Below, in pieces: positions 3,708-34,207 of a stretch of DNA of 41,767 nucleotides. Where the stretch lies: assembly GCA_943354605.1 (NCBI GenBank), contig CALRCK010000001.1, positions 1 through 41,767 on the forward strand. Reading direction: 5' to 3'. How positions within the stretch are numbered: position 1 is the first letter of the stretch; each line of letters starts with the position of its first letter. The position numbers and the translations under genes were made by a program. Under the pieces are notes generated by a model that was not told the origin of the DNA, did no database searches, and saw only the letters and a program-made list of their open reading frames with translations. The stretch is from Candidatus Uhrbacteria bacterium. GTDB taxonomy: Bacteria > Patescibacteriota > Patescibacteriia > UBA9934.

Positions 3708-3714
3708 AGACGGT

Positions 3715-3840
3715 GTTAACGAATCTCTTTGGTCGATTTTCGACTCAGATCATCGGAAACTCGCTCAACGTACACATGAAGTACGCCTCGCGAGCTTTCC
3801 TCGATCTTCATCGAAACTCGCCGCAAATATATTCGTTAAC
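3715..3840. repeat. Long imperfect palindrome, family copy A
   Basis: Outer arms GTTAACGAAT/ATTCGTTAAC perfect; core CTCAACGTACACATGAAGTACGCCTCG at 3764-3790; starts 8 nt upstream of the rpoB ATG. Confidence 0.85.
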
Positions 3841-3866
3841 GAAAAAATCGCCGCGTAAGCGACGGT
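3841..3866 (-). terminator. Intrinsic terminator/attenuator-like hairpin in rpoB leader
   Basis: Minus strand CGTCGC-TTAC-GCGGCG followed by ATTTTTTC. Confidence 0.5.
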
Positions 3867-5851: not shown

Positions 5852-5895
5852 ACAAAAATAGTGGATGATTCAGCACGATTTCGATCACGACAAGG

Positions 5896-6013
5896 ACGCA
5901 TATATTTCAGACCGATTTCGATGCGCGACGAAGAGAGGATCGTCAAGACGTACTTCATAGTACGTCGTCGATACTCTCGAGGAGCAAGTCGAAAGCGGGC
6001 GAAATAGATGCGT
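5896..6013. repeat. Long imperfect palindrome, related copy D (divergent core)
   Basis: Arms ACGCATATATTTC.../...GAAATAGATGCGT; center GACGTACTTCATAGTACGTC; upstream of recA. Confidence 0.7.
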
Positions 6014-6048
6014 ACTTTGCAATACGAACATCTACCGAACAGTCTACA

Positions 6049-11052: not shown

Positions 11053-11058
11053 AGATGG

Positions 11059-11179
11059 AAAACTTACCCAAGTTATTCACCTGCGTTGTCGCCGCTGTGG
11101 TCCTCGCTCACCGTACATATGCAGTACGCCTCGCTTCGGTCCTCGCGGTTCCTAGCAGCTGAACAACTTAGTAAGTTTT
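11059..11179. repeat. Long imperfect palindrome, family copy B
   Basis: Arms AAAACTTACCCAAGTTATTCA.../...TGAACAACTTAGTAAGTTTT; core CTCACCGTACATATGCAGTACGCCTCG at 11107-11133; between epmA-like stop and efp start. Confidence 0.85.
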
Positions 11180-11183
11180 GAAA

Positions 11184-12155
11184 TTAATATCGAGTTGAAG
11201 GAGGGAACAAATGAATACTATCGATGTCGTTCGCACCGGCCAAAAGCATAACCAGCCGATCGACGCCCAGTGCATTGCCGCACGTGGGAGAACGCAAGGA
11301 TGGTAACGCGGCGAGCAAGCCTTCGTCAATTGGGAACACTTCTTTTTTCGCTAATCTTCGCTCCTCAGCCTCAAGGCCGAATCTGCGACGCTGTTCTGCG
11401 GCATCTGTAAGTTCTGTAAATCCGTTACACATCTCGAGCTCACCAACAAACGCTTCGAATCGTTCGGCGTAACGACCGTCTGGACTGACCTTCGACAACG
11501 ATGCGCACGGCACCGGATATTCGCAGAGCATAAATCGACCCCGCGTCACAATCGTCGGCCAAATGATAGCCTGGAATAATCGATCGATGATTTCGTGAAC
11601 CGGTTCATCGACCGCTGGATCGGCGACCTTGAATTTCGCGCACGCCTCGATTAATCGCTCGCGATCCTCGTCGTGCGGAACGAATCCGAAAACCTTTTCG
11701 AATTCGTCGACGTAACTGACGCGTGCCCATTCATCTGTTCGATCGAGCACCGCGTTGATCAACTCCCCCGTCTCCGTCATCAGGTCGCGATAGTCCTTTC
11801 CTTGGCGGTACCACTCCAACATCGTGAACTCGATGCTCCATCGCTGGCCTGGCATTTCGCGATCGCGGAATACGGGAGCAAGCGTGAAAATCTTTTCCAT
11901 TCCCCCACCAAGCAGCTTCTTCATGCTGTACTCCGGGCTGGTGATGAGCCCCATTCTCGTAGAATGCGCATTCGGTCCGTCGGTATGGACATCCACCGCG
12001 AGTGGAGAGAGATTCGGCTCCATTCCCGGCGACTTCACGACGATCGGTGTAACGACTTCCGTGTAGCCGCGCGATCGAAAAAACTCCCGAATACGATCGG
12101 TTGCCGTATTCCAAAGTTGCGCACGAAGTTCAAGGTCGGATTTGGAGAGAGACAT
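11184..12155 (-). CDS. epmA: EF-P lysine ligase-like protein (EpmA/PoxA/GenX; short class II LysRS paralog)
   Basis: ~323 aa class II core without anticodon-binding domain: TSPEYSMKKLLGGGMEKIFTLAPVFRDREMPGQRWSIEFTMLEWYR, ELEMCNGFTELTD, NALGVDRLVMLLAGANDIDSIHLFP; directly upstream of efp; start chosen at MSLSKSD. Confidence 0.85.
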   Translation of the reverse strand: MSLSKSDLELRAQLWNTATDRIREFFRSRGYTEVVTPIVVKSPGMEPNLSPLAVDVHTDGPNAHSTRMGLITSPEYSMKKLLGGGMEKIFTLAPVFRDREMPGQRWSIEFTMLEWYRQGKDYRDLMTETGELINAVLDRTDEWARVSYVDEFEKVFGFVPHDEDRERLIEACAKFKVADPAVDEPVHEIIDRLFQAIIWPTIVTRGRFMLCEYPVPCASLSKVSPDGRYAERFEAFVGELEMCNGFTELTDAAEQRRRFGLEAEERRLAKKEVFPIDEGLLAALPSLRSPTCGNALGVDRLVMLLAGANDIDSIHLFPPSTRY

Positions 12156-15628: not shown

Positions 15629-15639
15629 CGCGTTTTCTA

Positions 15640-15764
15640 AAGAATTGTTTTATTTTGCCCACTTTCGGCTTACTTCTTCGCAAACTCGCTCACCGTACCA
15701 AGGAGTACGCCTCGCGAGCTTTGCTCGGCGCGCACCGAAATTGGTCTAAAATAAAACAATTCTT
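15640..15764. repeat. Long imperfect palindrome, family copy C
   Basis: 17 bp perfect outer arms AAGAATTGTTTTATTTT/AAAATAAAACAATTCTT; core CTCACCGTACCAAGGAGTACGCCTCG at 15689-15714. Confidence 0.9.
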
Positions 15765-15805
15765 CTCTTTCAACTTTTCAATACTTCCTCTACACTTCGC
15801 GCAAT

Positions 15806-24504: not shown

Positions 24505-27500
24505 TTATGGAGACGCCTCACCGCTCGACGCGTCTGTGCTTGGGGCAGAAGTGTCGGAACTCCCCGATACGTCTGGGGCTGGCGCATTAGAAACAACAGT
24601 ATCAGATCCCGCATCGGAAGCGATTGATGCATCCACAACAGGGTCTGAAGCGACGTCCGGCGCGACGACATCTTCGGTTGGCGCATCCACGATCGGAACA
24701 ATTTCAGGCGCTGAGGATCCCGAAGAATCTGATGGAGAAGACACGTCGGAACCAGAGCCAACGACCGGCGTCGGTTCTGAAGAAACCGTCGGAACCACAG
24801 GAGCAATCGGGACGACCGGAGCAACAACTGGCGCGTAGTCACGACGTGATGCAATCACCAACCAGTCAACAGAAACTCCGGTAGACGCTGCGCCAGATTC
24901 CGTAATCGAGAATCCATCGACGGTGCGATTTGTGACGTACAACGCTCCGGTTGCACCATATGGCGTGACAAGAGCGCGATAAGTTGGGTTTGTGTCAATA
25001 ACATCGACGAATGATGGATCAACCTCCGCAAAGTGCACATCGGCATGGCCATTCATCAATGTCACGGTCCCCGAAAGCTGAACCGTCATCTGTCGCGATG
25101 TTGCGGCGTATGTTTCAACATCGGCCCCTTGCGCGGAACGGACAAGCTCAATCAACCGGCCCGACGTCACAAGATCACCATCGTTTTCCAAGCGCCATGT
25201 GCCATTTGCACTCGTCATCGATCCAATAGCAAGCAGCTGTCCGCCGTTAAAGTTCAATGTTCCTGCGGTATCGAAATTTTCAATATCTTGCGCAAGTTGA
25301 GAAATGGAATTCTCTGCCGCTGGCCCCTGCTCCACCGGTGCACCGCTGTAGTACGACACGTTCACATACACCACAACACTGCCCATTGAACCCGCGAATG
25401 ATTCGGCGGCGTATCCAAGAATCGGCCCTGGCTCTGTTGCCTTCATGGCGTAGCCTGGATGCGTTGACGTTGTGAGCGGATCCCCGATATTGATTGCGCC
25501 ATTTTCCGTGGAAACCAAGGTTGGTACACGGCCAGCAAGCGCAATGGGGTAATTCCCTGCACGATTTTCACCAGCCAAGAATCCTGGGCGCGTTGAAACA
25601 ATGCCGGCAATCGTTCGGCTGTACACTTCTCCCGTTGAACGTTTTACCTGCTGACTTGCGTCGCCAAAAACGACAATTTCTCCCGGTGTTAGCACGTCAG
25701 GTGATGGGAACATTTCTGCAAAATCGTACGAACCCGTTGCCCAACCCGCGGAGTTGGTGCGCATGAAGTCGCCGCCGGAACCAGCCGAACCATCGTAATA
25801 AATGTATTTACTCTTTTGCGATGCGCCGCGATCGGAGGGATACAAACGACCAGCAATCGCGAGGTCTCCAGATTGATTCACCGATGCAACCTCCGTGCCG
25901 ACGCCATTCGCCACGGACAATCGGTAATCATTCACCGCGCTCACCGCAGTCTTCAAAGACATCCCGACGGTTTGTGCCGATCCTCCAGACCACGCGGAGC
26001 CCCGAAGCGAAAGCGTACCAGAATCCACCGCAGTCGTTGTTGCCGTTGCCGCTGTGGTCGCCGCAATCGCCAAGCTTCCCGCGACTTGCGTTGCGGACCC
26101 GGTTGCCGTCAAGACGTCTCCACCGTACCACTGTGGCTGAACAAGAACCTTAATTGTTCCCTTTCCGCTTGAGAGCGCTTCAAGTGCAAAGCCGATGATA
26201 CGCACCGGTCCATGGGCCTTTGCGCCGTATCCGGCAATCACCGATGACGTGGTAATTGGATCGCCAATCGCGATTGCTCCCTCGCTGGCGTTCACGTTGG
26301 TATCAATCTGCCCAACCATTCCCACGAGCGCCATTGAAACAGATGTCGCATCTGGCAAATTTCCAATAAATCCTGGCTTTGATGACATGACACCAACAAG
26401 ATTGTGGTTCCCCGCATCGCATCGCTTCACGGACGATGGTGTTCCGGTATCGGAACACACCATCTCATAAAACGCGAGTGTTGGATCATTCGACGGGAAG
26501 TATTCAGCATAGTCAGCTCCAGCGGCACTGTAGGCGTTATCAGACAACACCGATCCATCGGTTTCAATAGCAAGCACAAGCTGTCCGCTAGAGCGAACCA
26601 ACATAATATCGTCGTTGCTCGCGGCTTCAGCGGTTTCAAGAACAAGAGCCTGTCCGCCGATCGTTGTTCCGCCGGCGGCATCGGTCTGGTTTGCGGTGGT
26701 GGTTTGATAGAAATATCCCGCAACAGAATTTCCGCCGGCGGCATTCGAAACGTTTAGTCCAATACCGGTACTTGCAGTCACGTCTTGCTGCTGAATATCA
26801 AGAAGCTTTCCGGTAAATGTCGTTCCCGAAGCATCGTCACCTCGCAACACAATCAATCCCGTTCCACTTGTCAGGCTGTTCACGTTCATTGCTGCAGCCG
26901 CAACGGTCGTAATCGCAGACGTAAGGAGGAAATCATCGGTACCAGTTGTATCACCAAAGTGAGCGCTTCCGTGAGCCTCAATATCGTTTGAAACACCCAA
27001 ATCTCCGGCCGCATTCGCGATGGTCATCACGTCTGCGCCGTTATCAGTGTCCACCTGCACCAACGCTGCAGAAAAATATCCTGCATAGTTTGCCGTTGCA
27101 CCTCCGCTTGCCGTTGCATACACCCCGTATCGCGTTGCCCCTTCATTCACGTTCGTAAACGAGCCGCCGTACCCGGTCGTAAACGAGCCGCCGCCCGCCA
27201 AAATTTCCCCGCTCACTGCGGCGCCCTTTGTAATAGTGCCTTGCGAAGCCAGAACTGTTGAATACGAACCATAAACCGCAGCGACCGTCTGTGAGCTATC
27301 GTGTTGGGCGGTAAAATTTCCGCCAGCCAAATAGCCTCCGGCGTTTACCGCAGTGGCGTTCGTAGATTGGTTGTAAACAATACCGGTTACTCCAACGCCT
27401 GTATTTAATACGGCGCCAACAGCTGCGAGATCCACCTCGCCAATAGCTCCAAGAATGGAACTGCTCGAACCCGCGCCCGTTGCTCCGCTGTACGAAATCG

Positions 27501-28938
27501 TGCTCCCTGCCCCAACGAGGGTAAGGCTTGTTGCCGCAGCCGATGTTCCGTTGGCGGTGAGCGTGTTGTTATTCATGGTGTAGCCTCCGGCCGACAATGT
27601 ACTCTGATCAAATGTGTAGCTTTCGGAAATTTTTCCACCGCTATAAGTGAATGTGTCGGAATCTGCAAAAGAAAGCTTTCCGGAATTCGTTGCGTCTGAA
27701 GCAAAAAATGTAATGCCGGGATCGTTCACGTCGTTTGCTCCGTCGCCAACGCGAACGGAATTCGTTGCCTCTGTAACGGAAAATGCCGCCGTTGTGGTGC
27801 TATTTCCGACAGCAAAATTATCACCAGAAGTTACGTACACCAGACCACTTACATTTGGATTCAATGAAATATCTCCGCCGGTCGATCCAATCGAAATCGG
27901 CGATGAAGACGAAATCCCGCCGCCATTCACCGAAAGATCGCCGGCGCTTACAATATTTCCGCTTCCTGGGGCCACGGAAAAGTTCGCGCCACCAACCGTG
28001 AGGTTATTGGTGGTGACACCAAGACCCGCAGTGGCGTCGATGTTTCCACCAAACGTCACCTGACCTGTACTGCTGAATATAAGTGCACCTGTTCCAAGAA
28101 CAGTGTAATCAAACGCGCCAATATTCAACGACGTTGCCGCATCGAGCGCGAGCACATCGGAAAGTTCAGTGTAATCAATACAATCGGTGCATGAAAAATC
28201 TGCAGCCGCGACGGCACCCCCAAAACTTGAATCCCCTTCTGCATCCACGGAAAACTTGCTCGCCCCGCTCACCGCAACACCGAGCAACGTTTCATTCGGC
28301 ACAACAACTCCAGAAGCAGGATTAATGTAGAGAGAACCCTGAGAAACCCCTGCACCCTGAGGAGATCCCGTCAACACAAGATTCCCACTCGCATCCGTCA
28401 CCGGAACCACTTGTGACGTTGCGCCGACTGAAGAGGTATCGAACCCATCAAGTGCATCCGAATTCATCGCATATGGCGCCGAAAGCATCGCTTTTCTAGG
28501 GGTGAGTGTTTCACCGTTCACGATAATTTCAAGAAAGACGCTTCCATTGTTTGAAAACACCGTTGCGGGAATGGTTGCATATGCCGGTGCGGCGGACGCG
28601 TCACCGAGAGCCTCAGAAAACAATCCTGACGTTAGGGCAACCGTTCGTGCAACAACAGAAGCACACGACGAAGAGCTATTGGACCACAAACACGTTCCAC
28701 CACTCGCCGCCGTATACAGCGCAAAAGAAATAGTCGCCGTCGCATCAGACACCGGTACGCCGTTGCTGTTCAATAACCGGCCTTGATACATGATGATCCT
28801 TGGCGGAACAGCCGCAGCCTGCACGCGAACGAGTCCGGCGTATCCCGTTCCAACCAATACACACGCAAACACAAAGCTCGCAAAGAACCGCTTTGCGAGT
28901 GCGCGGATGGTCTTCGCCGAACAACCCTCCCTCCTCAT
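24505..28938 (-). CDS. Giant secreted surface/fibre-like protein with duplicated GDPxTTS module
   Basis: 1477 aa; signal-like N-terminus, IIMYQGRLLNSNGVPVSDATATISFALY, Gly/Ser/Thr-rich repeats, two related modules (YAEYFPSNDPTL...IAIGDPITTSS / FAEMFPSPDVLTPGE...INIGDPLTTST), Ser/Pro/Asp-rich tail. Confidence 0.8.
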   Translation of the reverse strand: MRREGCSAKTIRALAKRFFASFVFACVLVGTGYAGLVRVQAAAVPPRIIMYQGRLLNSNGVPVSDATATISFALYTAASGGTCLWSNSSSSCASVVARTVALTSGLFSEALGDASAAPAYATIPATVFSNNGSVFLEIIVNGETLTPRKAMLSAPYAMNSDALDGFDTSSVGATSQVVPVTDASGNLVLTGSPQGAGVSQGSLYINPASGVVVPNETLLGVAVSGASKFSVDAEGDSSFGGAVAAADFSCTDCIDYTELSDVLALDAATSLNIGAFDYTVLGTGALIFSSTGQVTFGGNIDATAGLGVTTNNLTVGGANFSVAPGSGNIVSAGDLSVNGGGISSSSPISIGSTGGDISLNPNVSGLVYVTSGDNFAVGNSTTTAAFSVTEATNSVRVGDGANDVNDPGITFFASDATNSGKLSFADSDTFTYSGGKISESYTFDQSTLSAGGYTMNNNTLTANGTSAAATSLTLVGAGSTISYSGATGAGSSSSILGAIGEVDLAAVGAVLNTGVGVTGIVYNQSTNATAVNAGGYLAGGNFTAQHDSSQTVAAVYGSYSTVLASQGTITKGAAVSGEILAGGGSFTTGYGGSFTNVNEGATRYGVYATASGGATANYAGYFSAALVQVDTDNGADVMTIANAAGDLGVSNDIEAHGSAHFGDTTGTDDFLLTSAITTVAAAAMNVNSLTSGTGLIVLRGDDASGTTFTGKLLDIQQQDVTASTGIGLNVSNAAGGNSVAGYFYQTTTANQTDAAGGTTIGGQALVLETAEAASNDDIMLVRSSGQLVLAIETDGSVLSDNAYSAAGADYAEYFPSNDPTLAFYEMVCSDTGTPSSVKRCDAGNHNLVGVMSSKPGFIGNLPDATSVSMALVGMVGQIDTNVNASEGAIAIGDPITTSSVIAGYGAKAHGPVRIIGFALEALSSGKGTIKVLVQPQWYGGDVLTATGSATQVAGSLAIAATTAATATTTAVDSGTLSLRGSAWSGGSAQTVGMSLKTAVSAVNDYRLSVANGVGTEVASVNQSGDLAIAGRLYPSDRGASQKSKYIYYDGSAGSGGDFMRTNSAGWATGSYDFAEMFPSPDVLTPGEIVVFGDASQQVKRSTGEVYSRTIAGIVSTRPGFLAGENRAGNYPIALAGRVPTLVSTENGAINIGDPLTTSTHPGYAMKATEPGPILGYAAESFAGSMGSVVVYVNVSYYSGAPVEQGPAAENSISQLAQDIENFDTAGTLNFNGGQLLAIGSMTSANGTWRLENDGDLVTSGRLIELVRSAQGADVETYAATSRQMTVQLSGTVTLMNGHADVHFAEVDPSFVDVIDTNPTYRALVTPYGATGALYVTNRTVDGFSITESGAASTGVSVDWLVIASRRDYAPVVAPVVPIAPVVPTVSSEPTPVVGSGSDVSSPSDSSGSSAPEIVPIVDAPTEDVVAPDVASDPVVDASIASDAGSDTVVSNAPAPDVSGSSDTSAPSTDASSGEASP

Positions 28939-33029: not shown

Positions 33030-33037
33030 ATCCAAAA

Positions 33038-33053
33038 TGTTTCACGTGAAACA
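33038..33053. promoter_or_regulatory. parS site 1
   Basis: Perfect TGTTTCACGTGAAACA, extended palindrome AAAATGTTTCACGTGAAACATTTT. Confidence 0.9.
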
Positions 33054-33152
33054 TTTTGAGTTGTGAAGATATTTCCTTTCCATTCAGATCCAAAAAACCC
33101 CTCAGTTCTACGAGACTCGCTTCGTTCAGTATTTATAGCCAAGTCCATAAAT

Positions 33153-33168
33153 TGTTTCACGTGAAACA
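33153..33168. promoter_or_regulatory. parS site 2
   Basis: Perfect TGTTTCACGTGAAACA, extended AAATTGTTTCACGTGAAACAATTT. Confidence 0.9.
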
Positions 33169-33343
33169 ATTTCGAACTAAACATCAAGAACAAGACAACG
33201 GTATTGCCAAAACAATAAAACTCACAAATATAATAGATCGAACAAGCCAACATCTTTCGGGCAAATTTAATGGAGAAATAATGAAAAATACAAAACACTG
33301 TCATTTGCGGCTAGCTCGGTATACAAAAAGAGTTGAACCAACT

Positions 33344-33470
33344 ACAAAACGCCGTCATTTGCGACGAATTTAGGTGCGCGGCGAGCGAAGCTTTTGAGAC
33401 GCACTTTCTGGTACGTTGAAAAAGTTCGCGATGCCGCAAGCCTAAAGTCGGCCAAATGCCGGCGTTTTGT
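33344..33470. repeat. Long imperfect palindrome, related copy E
   Basis: Arms ACAAAACGCCGTCATTTG.../...CAAATGCCGGCGTTTTGT; abuts 3' end of tRNA-Ala. Confidence 0.8.
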
Positions 33471-33545
33471 GGTGGACCTGAGCGGATTCGAACCGCTGAC
33501 CTCTGCAATGCGAATGCAGCGCTCTACCAACTGAGCTACAAGCCC
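33470..33545 (-). tRNA. tRNA-Ala(CGC)
   Basis: GGGCTTGTAGCTCAGTTGGTAGAGCGCTGCATTCGCATTGCAGAGGTCAGCGGTTCGAATCCGCTCAGGTCCACCA. Confidence 0.95.
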
Positions 33546-33547
33546 AG

Positions 33548-33669
33548 AAAACCGGCCCAAGTTCGCCATCTACGGCGTCAGATTTCTCCGGTCCTCCTCA
33601 CCGTACACATGAAGTACGCCTCGTCGGTCCTCGAAATCTTCCTTGTATATGACGAACTTAGCCAGTTTT
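33548..33669. repeat. Long imperfect palindrome, family copy F
   Basis: Arms AAACCGGCCCAAGTTCGCCAT.../...ATGACGAACTTAGCCAGTTTT; core CTCACCGTACACATGAAGTACGCCTCG at 33597-33623. Confidence 0.85.
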
Positions 33670-33707
33670 CCGTCAATTCAGTTTCGTTTTTTAAATCACT
33701 CCCAAAT

Positions 33708-33723
33708 TGTTTCACGTGAAACA
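33708..33723. promoter_or_regulatory. parS site 3
   Basis: Perfect TGTTTCACGTGAAACA, extended AAATTGTTTCACGTGAAACAATTT. Confidence 0.9.
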
Positions 33724-33738
33724 ATTTTATTCCTGAAT

Positions 33739-33863
33739 ACCATTGGTCATTTAAACAGCGAAGTGCTAGGAGCCGCGAGGAGCGAAGCAAGCTGTACATT
33801 GACGTACAGCGCGCGAGCACCGGAGCGGCGACACCGCAATTCGTTGTTTAAATGACCAATGGT
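33739..33863. repeat. Long imperfect palindrome, related copy G
   Basis: 19 bp perfect outer arms ACCATTGGTCATTTAAACA/TGTTTAAATGACCAATGGT; center GCTGTACATTGACGTACAGC; overlaps 3' end of tRNA-Arg. Confidence 0.85.
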
Positions 33864-33936
33864 GACCTCGGCGGGAGTTGAACCTGCAACCTTGTCCTTA
33901 GGACGGACCTGCTCTATCCAGTTGAGCTACGAGGTC
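33860..33936 (-). tRNA. tRNA-Arg(CCT)
   Basis: GACCTCGTAGCTCAACTGGATAGAGCAGGTCCGTCCTAAGGACAAGGTTGCAGGTTCAACTCCCGCCGAGGTCACCA. Confidence 0.92.
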
Positions 33937-33939
33937 ATG

Positions 33940-34068
33940 CTGAAACTCCCACATTTGGTCTATTTTTGGCTCGCATCATCGCAAAACCTCCTCACCGTAC
34001 ACGCGAAGTACGCCTCGGAGGCTTTGCTCGACGCTCACCAAAACTAGCCTCAAATGTGAAAGTTTCAG
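33940..34068. repeat. Long imperfect palindrome, family copy H
   Basis: Arms CTGAAACTCCCACATTTG.../...CAAATGTGAAAGTTTCAG; core CTCACCGTACACGCGAAGTACGCCTCG at 33991-34017. Confidence 0.9.
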
Positions 34069-34207
34069 ATTCACCAAACAGGAACGTTCGTTAACTTCAA
34101 AACGCGTCAGCTCACATGTGTCGTAAAATATATTCTCAATTTGTGATATACTATACGAACGCGAAAGAAGTATACGTATCGCTCCAATATCGCGTCAATG
34201 AAAATCT

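Follow-up and report, generated by a model that had tools for sequence, protein, structure and literature searches.

The window, by which we mean the whole 41,767-nt stretch of Candidatus Uhrbacteria DNA analysed here, carries a tRNA-Ala and a tRNA-Arg gene on its minus strand, each flanked on both sides by a long palindrome (elements E to H). The features of this locus are listed below with bit scores from two covariance models, R1 and R2, which are described in the next section.

33286..33320, plus strand: apparent truncated left end of another copy (degenerate third arm upstream of E)
33341..33473, plus strand: element E, subfamily A; right end at the CCA end of tRNA-Ala; R1, 133 bits
33470..33545, minus strand: tRNA-Ala(CGC)
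33543..33674, minus strand: element F, subfamily B; right end at the mature 5' end of tRNA-Ala; R2, 99.7 bits
33737..33865, plus strand: element G, subfamily B; right end at the CCA end of tRNA-Arg; R2, 122 bits
33860..33936, minus strand: tRNA-Arg(CCT)
33937..34071, minus strand: element H, subfamily A; right end at the mature 5' end of tRNA-Arg; R1, 132.7 bits

The four elements are imperfect hairpins of about 125-133 nt each and are mutually related, forming one repeat family. Folded as the minus strand, E (33341-33473), F (about 33545-33669), G (33739-33863) and H (33940-34068) reach -63, -60, -65 and -76 kcal/mol, with z-scores against dinucleotide shuffles of -8.3, -8.1, -10.0 and -11.7, respectively; none of 200 shuffles folds as well. 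The CCA ends of tRNA-Ala and tRNA-Arg are drawn into pairing by E and G, respectively, while F begins 1-3 nt from the 5' end of tRNA-Ala and H begins 4 nt from that of tRNA-Arg. The first-pass annotation had described two tRNA genes with palindromes on each side and boundaries tight against the tRNA ends; the tRNAs and the four hairpins are real (z of -8 to -12), and the boundaries hold to within 1-2 nt. The degenerate third copy of E's arm that it reported upstream is real as well (33286-33320; score 30, reached by 0 of 2000 shuffles). As the match to the family consensus runs past E's arm, through GGCTAG.CTCGGT, this third arm appears to be the left end, itself truncated, of a further copy. 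Element H sits between a conserved upstream region and tRNA-Arg and is therefore probably transcribed as a removable leader. Three parS-like palindromes (TGTTTCACGTGAAACA) are clustered round the tRNA pair (window 33032-33067, 33147-33182 and 33702-33737) and about eight are found at the counterpart locus of genome G001; the cluster may mark the origin region.

An interspersed palindromic family

An inverted-repeat scan of the window and of stretches of the genome revealed further hairpins of the same length, many of them beside other tRNAs. Model R1, built from nine hairpins, finds 72 distinct copies genome-wide; R2, which represents subfamily B (F and G included), adds one and agrees with R1 on the strand of the shared copies. 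Elements E to H are thus members of an interspersed palindromic repeat family, and an association with hairpins is not peculiar to these two tRNA genes. Their own 938-kb (0.94-Mb) genome (G000) has 73 or more copies, a minimum since only part of the candidate windows was scored. The copies share a common core (TTTCGGTGCGC..GGAGCAAAG..CGAGGCGTAC-loop-GTACGGTGAGCGA..TTGCGA..GCAAGCCGAAAA) and differ in their outer arms. Besides E to H, the window has four more:

3711..3844, minus strand: family copy; right end 3 nt from the rpoB start codon; site empty in G003
5888..6021, plus strand: family copy in the spacer between two genes; site empty in G003
11054..11184, minus strand: family copy, subfamily B; right end 1 nt from a predicted start codon; site empty in G003
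15636..15768, minus strand: family copy between two genes

Amplification of the family is seen in five species of this genus, four same-genus genomes giving 31-133 strand-level matches, and R2 finds structure-model matches, some of them weak, in 29 of the 31 genomes of the order. No element reached the gathering level of any curated Rfam model, the weak hits being near chance. As short non-coding repeats with terminal inverted repeats, palindromic to near the last base, the elements conform to the general description of a prokaryotic MITE.

Variant forms occur. The H-like copy of G002 measures 168 nt and has an extra small hairpin nested in each arm (L209:2729-2896 = L106:2718-2885), and short forms of 76-77 nt keep both arms while missing part of the inner sequence (L036:11557-11633, L222:3634-3709). 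A separate, near-perfect palindromic repeat of about 67 nt (GTCATCCCCGCG.AGGCGGGGATC) also recurs in the genome (L036:7689-7755, L043:2072-2139, L044:16284-16350). Elsewhere in the window, an open reading frame of 1477 aa that has no match in Pfam (24505-28938, minus strand) adjoins one of 718 aa with a weak SdrD_B hit.

Turnover and one-ended polarity

At the tRNA-Ala/tRNA-Arg pair, G001 has none of the four elements, G003 only G, G004 all four, and G002 E-, F- and H-like copies without G; the place of E in G003 is taken by a short terminator. Some 40 further comparisons of filled and empty sites at other loci give a net gain of mostly 123-131 nt. Such presence and absence between species at matching loci, again as expected of a MITE, implies that the family is or was mobile. 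The 5' edge of tRNA-Ala holds a subfamily B element in G000 (F) and subfamily A elements in G002 and G004 (R1/R2 bits at this position, 33/100 in G000 vs 121/51 in G004), so that the same edge has been occupied by different elements. Exceptions to the usual gain, near 97-100 nt, are the tRNA-Leu-side copy C1:172069 (about 97-98 nt) and C2:141315, where hairpins stand in the empty relative; E and C1:172069 look merged with a pre-existing terminator hairpin. Copy C2:141315 (G000; L200:2816-2947) lies beside a T-box-like antiterminator sequence, AAAGTACGGTGGCACCGCG, and G004 has a short hairpin there. Another copy, in G004, lies inside the class A RNase P RNA locus (L243:14585-14716), at a site that is empty in G000.

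The elements meet their neighbours with one end. Among 72 copies, oriented from the core alone and compared with codon-usage gene calls made in this analysis, a gene edge lies within 10 nt of the right end in 48 and of the left end in 11; 41 are adjacent by the right end only and 4 by the left only (p 9e-9). Uniform insertion in the same spacers would give 16 right-adjacent copies. Median distances to a gene edge are 1 nt for the right end and 65 nt for the left. The right (3') end faces the edge whichever way the neighbouring gene runs, and the edges are of several kinds: tRNA 5' ends (16), tRNA/tmRNA 3' ends (6, to which R2 adds one), CDS 3' ends (16) and CDS 5' ends (10). Genome-wide, 21 of the 51 tRNA/tmRNA genes have right-end contacts, 23 in all (16 at 5' and 7 at 3' edges), and 30 have none; the two left-end contacts involve copies that already touch another tRNA by the right end. 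Of the 41 copies in the stretches of G003 and G004, a selection made in part around known hits, 16 touch a tRNA, and the right end takes part every time. Other genera yield 34 right and 0 left tRNA contacts (68 copies), a count that a few flanking bases in R2, trained partly on tRNA-adjacent copies, may bias slightly. An end of 23S rRNA lies 9-15 nt from the right end of a copy in six genomes, and start and stop codons serve as edges too. No conserved target motif was found in the right flank. The neighbouring coding sequences are mixed (rpoB, rpsB, gyrB, HU, ATP synthase, lumazine synthase; all but rpoB named by eye from sequence), and on this ground we discarded the idea of a regulon of translation genes.

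These data bear on the origin of the tight boundaries, for which the first-pass annotation had offered a role in tRNA processing, a role in termination, or insertion targeting gene edges. The last is strongly supported by the syntenic empty sites, by the share of tRNA/tmRNA genes in contact and by the recurrence in other genera. A role in processing finds no support, and any tRNA-specific role is rejected, because coding-sequence and 23S rRNA edges are used too. Nor are these two chance insertions in a genome whose other tRNA genes lack such elements: many of those genes carry them, and relatives reuse the same edges.

Maintained hairpins, insertion and competing explanations

Identity between copies is just 51% in the outer arms, against 70% in the core, yet the outer arms pair almost perfectly, and most outer-arm pairs show all four Watson-Crick types. 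Orthologous copies, from which F was left out as not orthologous, show 67 two-sided compensatory changes against 21 breaking ones. The plus strand folds better, by about 14 kcal/mol, in 112 of 113 copies; three pairs are fixed as G.U in that strand, and its one-sided changes lean towards G.U (100) over A.C (55; p 2e-4). Copies at 5' and 3' edges alike show this plus-strand advantage, so the structure seems to go with the element rather than with local transcription. Selection at the RNA level following the local direction of transcription was considered and set aside, the G.U to A.C counts (36/17 in 5'-edge copies, 23/21 in 3'-edge copies) being suggestive only.

The account we favour, and hold to be probable, is that E to H are MITE-like mobile hairpins that insert 3'-end-first at gene edges, some of them (G, probably E) being kept afterwards, perhaps as terminators. 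The mobile form would be the folded plus strand, as RNA or as single-stranded DNA. We infer that joining begins with its 3' end, which would attach to a free DNA end or a nick at the gene edge, and that the left end would be closed afterwards, with no set motif at the target. A copy landing immediately beyond a mature tRNA, rRNA or coding sequence would be tolerated, as it leaves the product whole; at 5' edges, copies would then be transcribed as removable leaders, and at 3' edges as trailers or terminators. Against this account count the failure of a Y1/RVT survey to yield a mobilising enzyme and the lack of a consistent target duplication, and simple flush insertion does not account for E and C1:172069, with their apparently merged terminator hairpins. 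A TA or CATA duplication would fit a few sites, most have none, and the terminal bases are inverted complements, not direct repeats. The survey took in Y1_Tnp and RVT_1, both of which are absent from the copy-richest genome, G002, and from the copy-bearing G006, G008 and G011; an IS200-type Y1 transposase or a reverse transcriptase was rejected as mobiliser, its presence not tracking copy number. One could go further and envision an order-wide mobile hairpin whose 3'-end-first integration at the physical ends of genes, for RNA and protein alike, follows an unrecognised route mediated by RNA or by single strands. The 3' end of the element would then be brought against a gene strand's 3' terminus, as though the latter served as primer, or against the 5' terminus of an RNA, as though through template jumping. 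We regard this bolder proposal as rather doubtful. A host-derived right arm, tried as a general rule, fits few sites (TCTCCACC, terminator-like arms) and fails at tRNA 5' edges.

A different view, to which we give slightly less credence than to that bolder proposal, is that the hairpins are cis-acting signals (terminators, processing signals or leaders of tRNA, rRNA and other genes) selected locus by locus, their mobility being incidental or ancient. The compensatory changes between orthologues speak in its favour, as does element G: G-like hairpins stand at the 3' end of tRNA-Arg(CCT) in G000, G003 and G004, and also in G023 and G026, from another genus or genera, where the arms are rewritten yet complementary. 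Given this conservation across two or three genera, at least one copy behaves as a fixed functional element, a point that also counts against the favoured account. The outer stem of E resembles the tRNA-Ala terminator stem of G003 (CCACAAAACATCGGCA..TGCCGATGTTTTG), which suggests that E is an element merged with, or acting as, the tRNA-Ala terminator; among E to H, the pattern of a stem followed by a T-tract is matched in E alone. The tRNA-Leu-side and tmRNA copies also have A-tract/T-tract arms. A predicted role in termination is therefore plausible for the subset at tRNA/tmRNA 3' ends, and to this extent the earlier suggestion stands; it fails for copies at 5' edges and start codons, which cannot terminate the adjacent gene. 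However, sister species with intact tRNAs lack an element at most of the sites, 30 of the 51 tRNA/tmRNA genes manage without right-end contact, and no single role in processing or termination predicts that the same end should face the gene at both 5' and 3' edges. On the favoured account, G and probably E would have been retained after insertion, plausibly as transcript-ending hairpins.

Two other explanations fare worse. An ordinary MITE of the ERIC/RUP/NEMIS type, moved by a TA-specific (IS630-like) transposase and found at gene edges only through selection against insertion inside genes, would agree with the size of about 127 nt, the terminal inverted repeats, the intergenic position and several empty sites compatible with TA insertion (sites 0, 60, 87 and 16). 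We nevertheless consider it improbable and rejected it on the ends, since just 8 of the 72 copies have TA at both. Moreover, symmetric DDE insertion followed by purifying selection predicts equal distances on left and right, not the excess of right-only copies. Still less credible is an origin of the arms in replication, through arm-to-arm template switching (palindrome correction) that keeps and extends them, with the structure unselected and the position marking where palindromes grow harmlessly. The outer arms do co-vary up to the last pairs, and in some filled/empty pairs (TCTCCACC, TAAGTTTT) the outer right arm matches the sequence of the empty site. Yet correction between double-stranded arms would not be expected to produce the lean towards G.U or the three fixed G.U pairs, and it leaves insertion and polarity unexplained.

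Significance and relation to known repeats

Small palindromic repeats are common in bacteria and their manner of movement is unsettled. The present family follows a clear geometric rule, one fixed end at several classes of gene edge, in gene-dense genomes; with natural filled and empty sites at hand, this rule makes the mechanism testable. It also points to a way in which long leader and trailer hairpins might be added to the tRNA and rRNA genes of Patescibacteria. In eukaryotes, recurrent insertion beside tRNA genes is known from retroelements (Ty1/Ty3, TRE). These have enzymes of their own and are directed to Pol III factors, which bacteria lack. In contrast, the elements described here encode nothing and use CDS and rRNA edges too.

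A literature search of partial coverage turned up neither a description of these elements nor one of docking at gene edges by a single end, and no bacterial repeat family that behaves alike. Among bacterial repeats, ERIC (IRU, RU-1) of enterobacteria is 127 bp long, with TA termini and target duplications tabulated in the accessible text of PMC2229807. Like our elements, it is, according to the same text, near-identical in length, imperfectly palindromic, intergenic, mobile and able to form a stable RNA hairpin; unlike ERIC, the elements here rarely have TA ends, have arms rewritten between copies and place one end at tRNA, rRNA or CDS edges. For RUP and NEMIS, too, the accessible tables give TA termini, RUP sharing its ends with an IS (PMC2229807). 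RUP, NEMIS/Correia and RPE resemble our family as small, palindromic, mobile, multicopy repeats, some with RNA-level effects; the rarity of TA ends, which are a defining trait of ERIC, RUP and NEMIS, separates it from RUP and NEMIS, and no IS comparable to that of RUP came up among the families surveyed (Y1_Tnp and RVT_1). REP/RAYT elements would call for a Y1 (TnpA-REP) transposase, which the four copy-bearing genomes named above lack. YPAL (RU-2) of Yersinia, at 168 bp, is described in the available portion of PMC2229807 as being without TA termini and inserted at or beside dyad symmetry. It thus resembles our elements in being palindromic and mobile without TA termini, and E, C1:172069 and C2:141315 likewise coincide with host hairpins; it differs in size, and the same portion mentions neither one-end polarity nor tRNA/rRNA edges for YPAL.

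The mitochondrial hairpin elements (GC clusters, DHE, RHE) are likewise mobile, have constrained stems and can merge with other palindromes, and RNA-mediated movement is discussed for GC clusters in the accessible parts of PMC4478555 and PMC2800124. They differ in being organellar and shorter (GC42 = 42 nt), the GC clusters having short terminal direct repeats, and those parts report no polar docking at gene edges (PMC4478555, PMC2800124). ERIC, RUP, NEMIS and YPAL are the nearest bacterial repeats; in behaviour, the nearest analogues are the mitochondrial hairpin elements.
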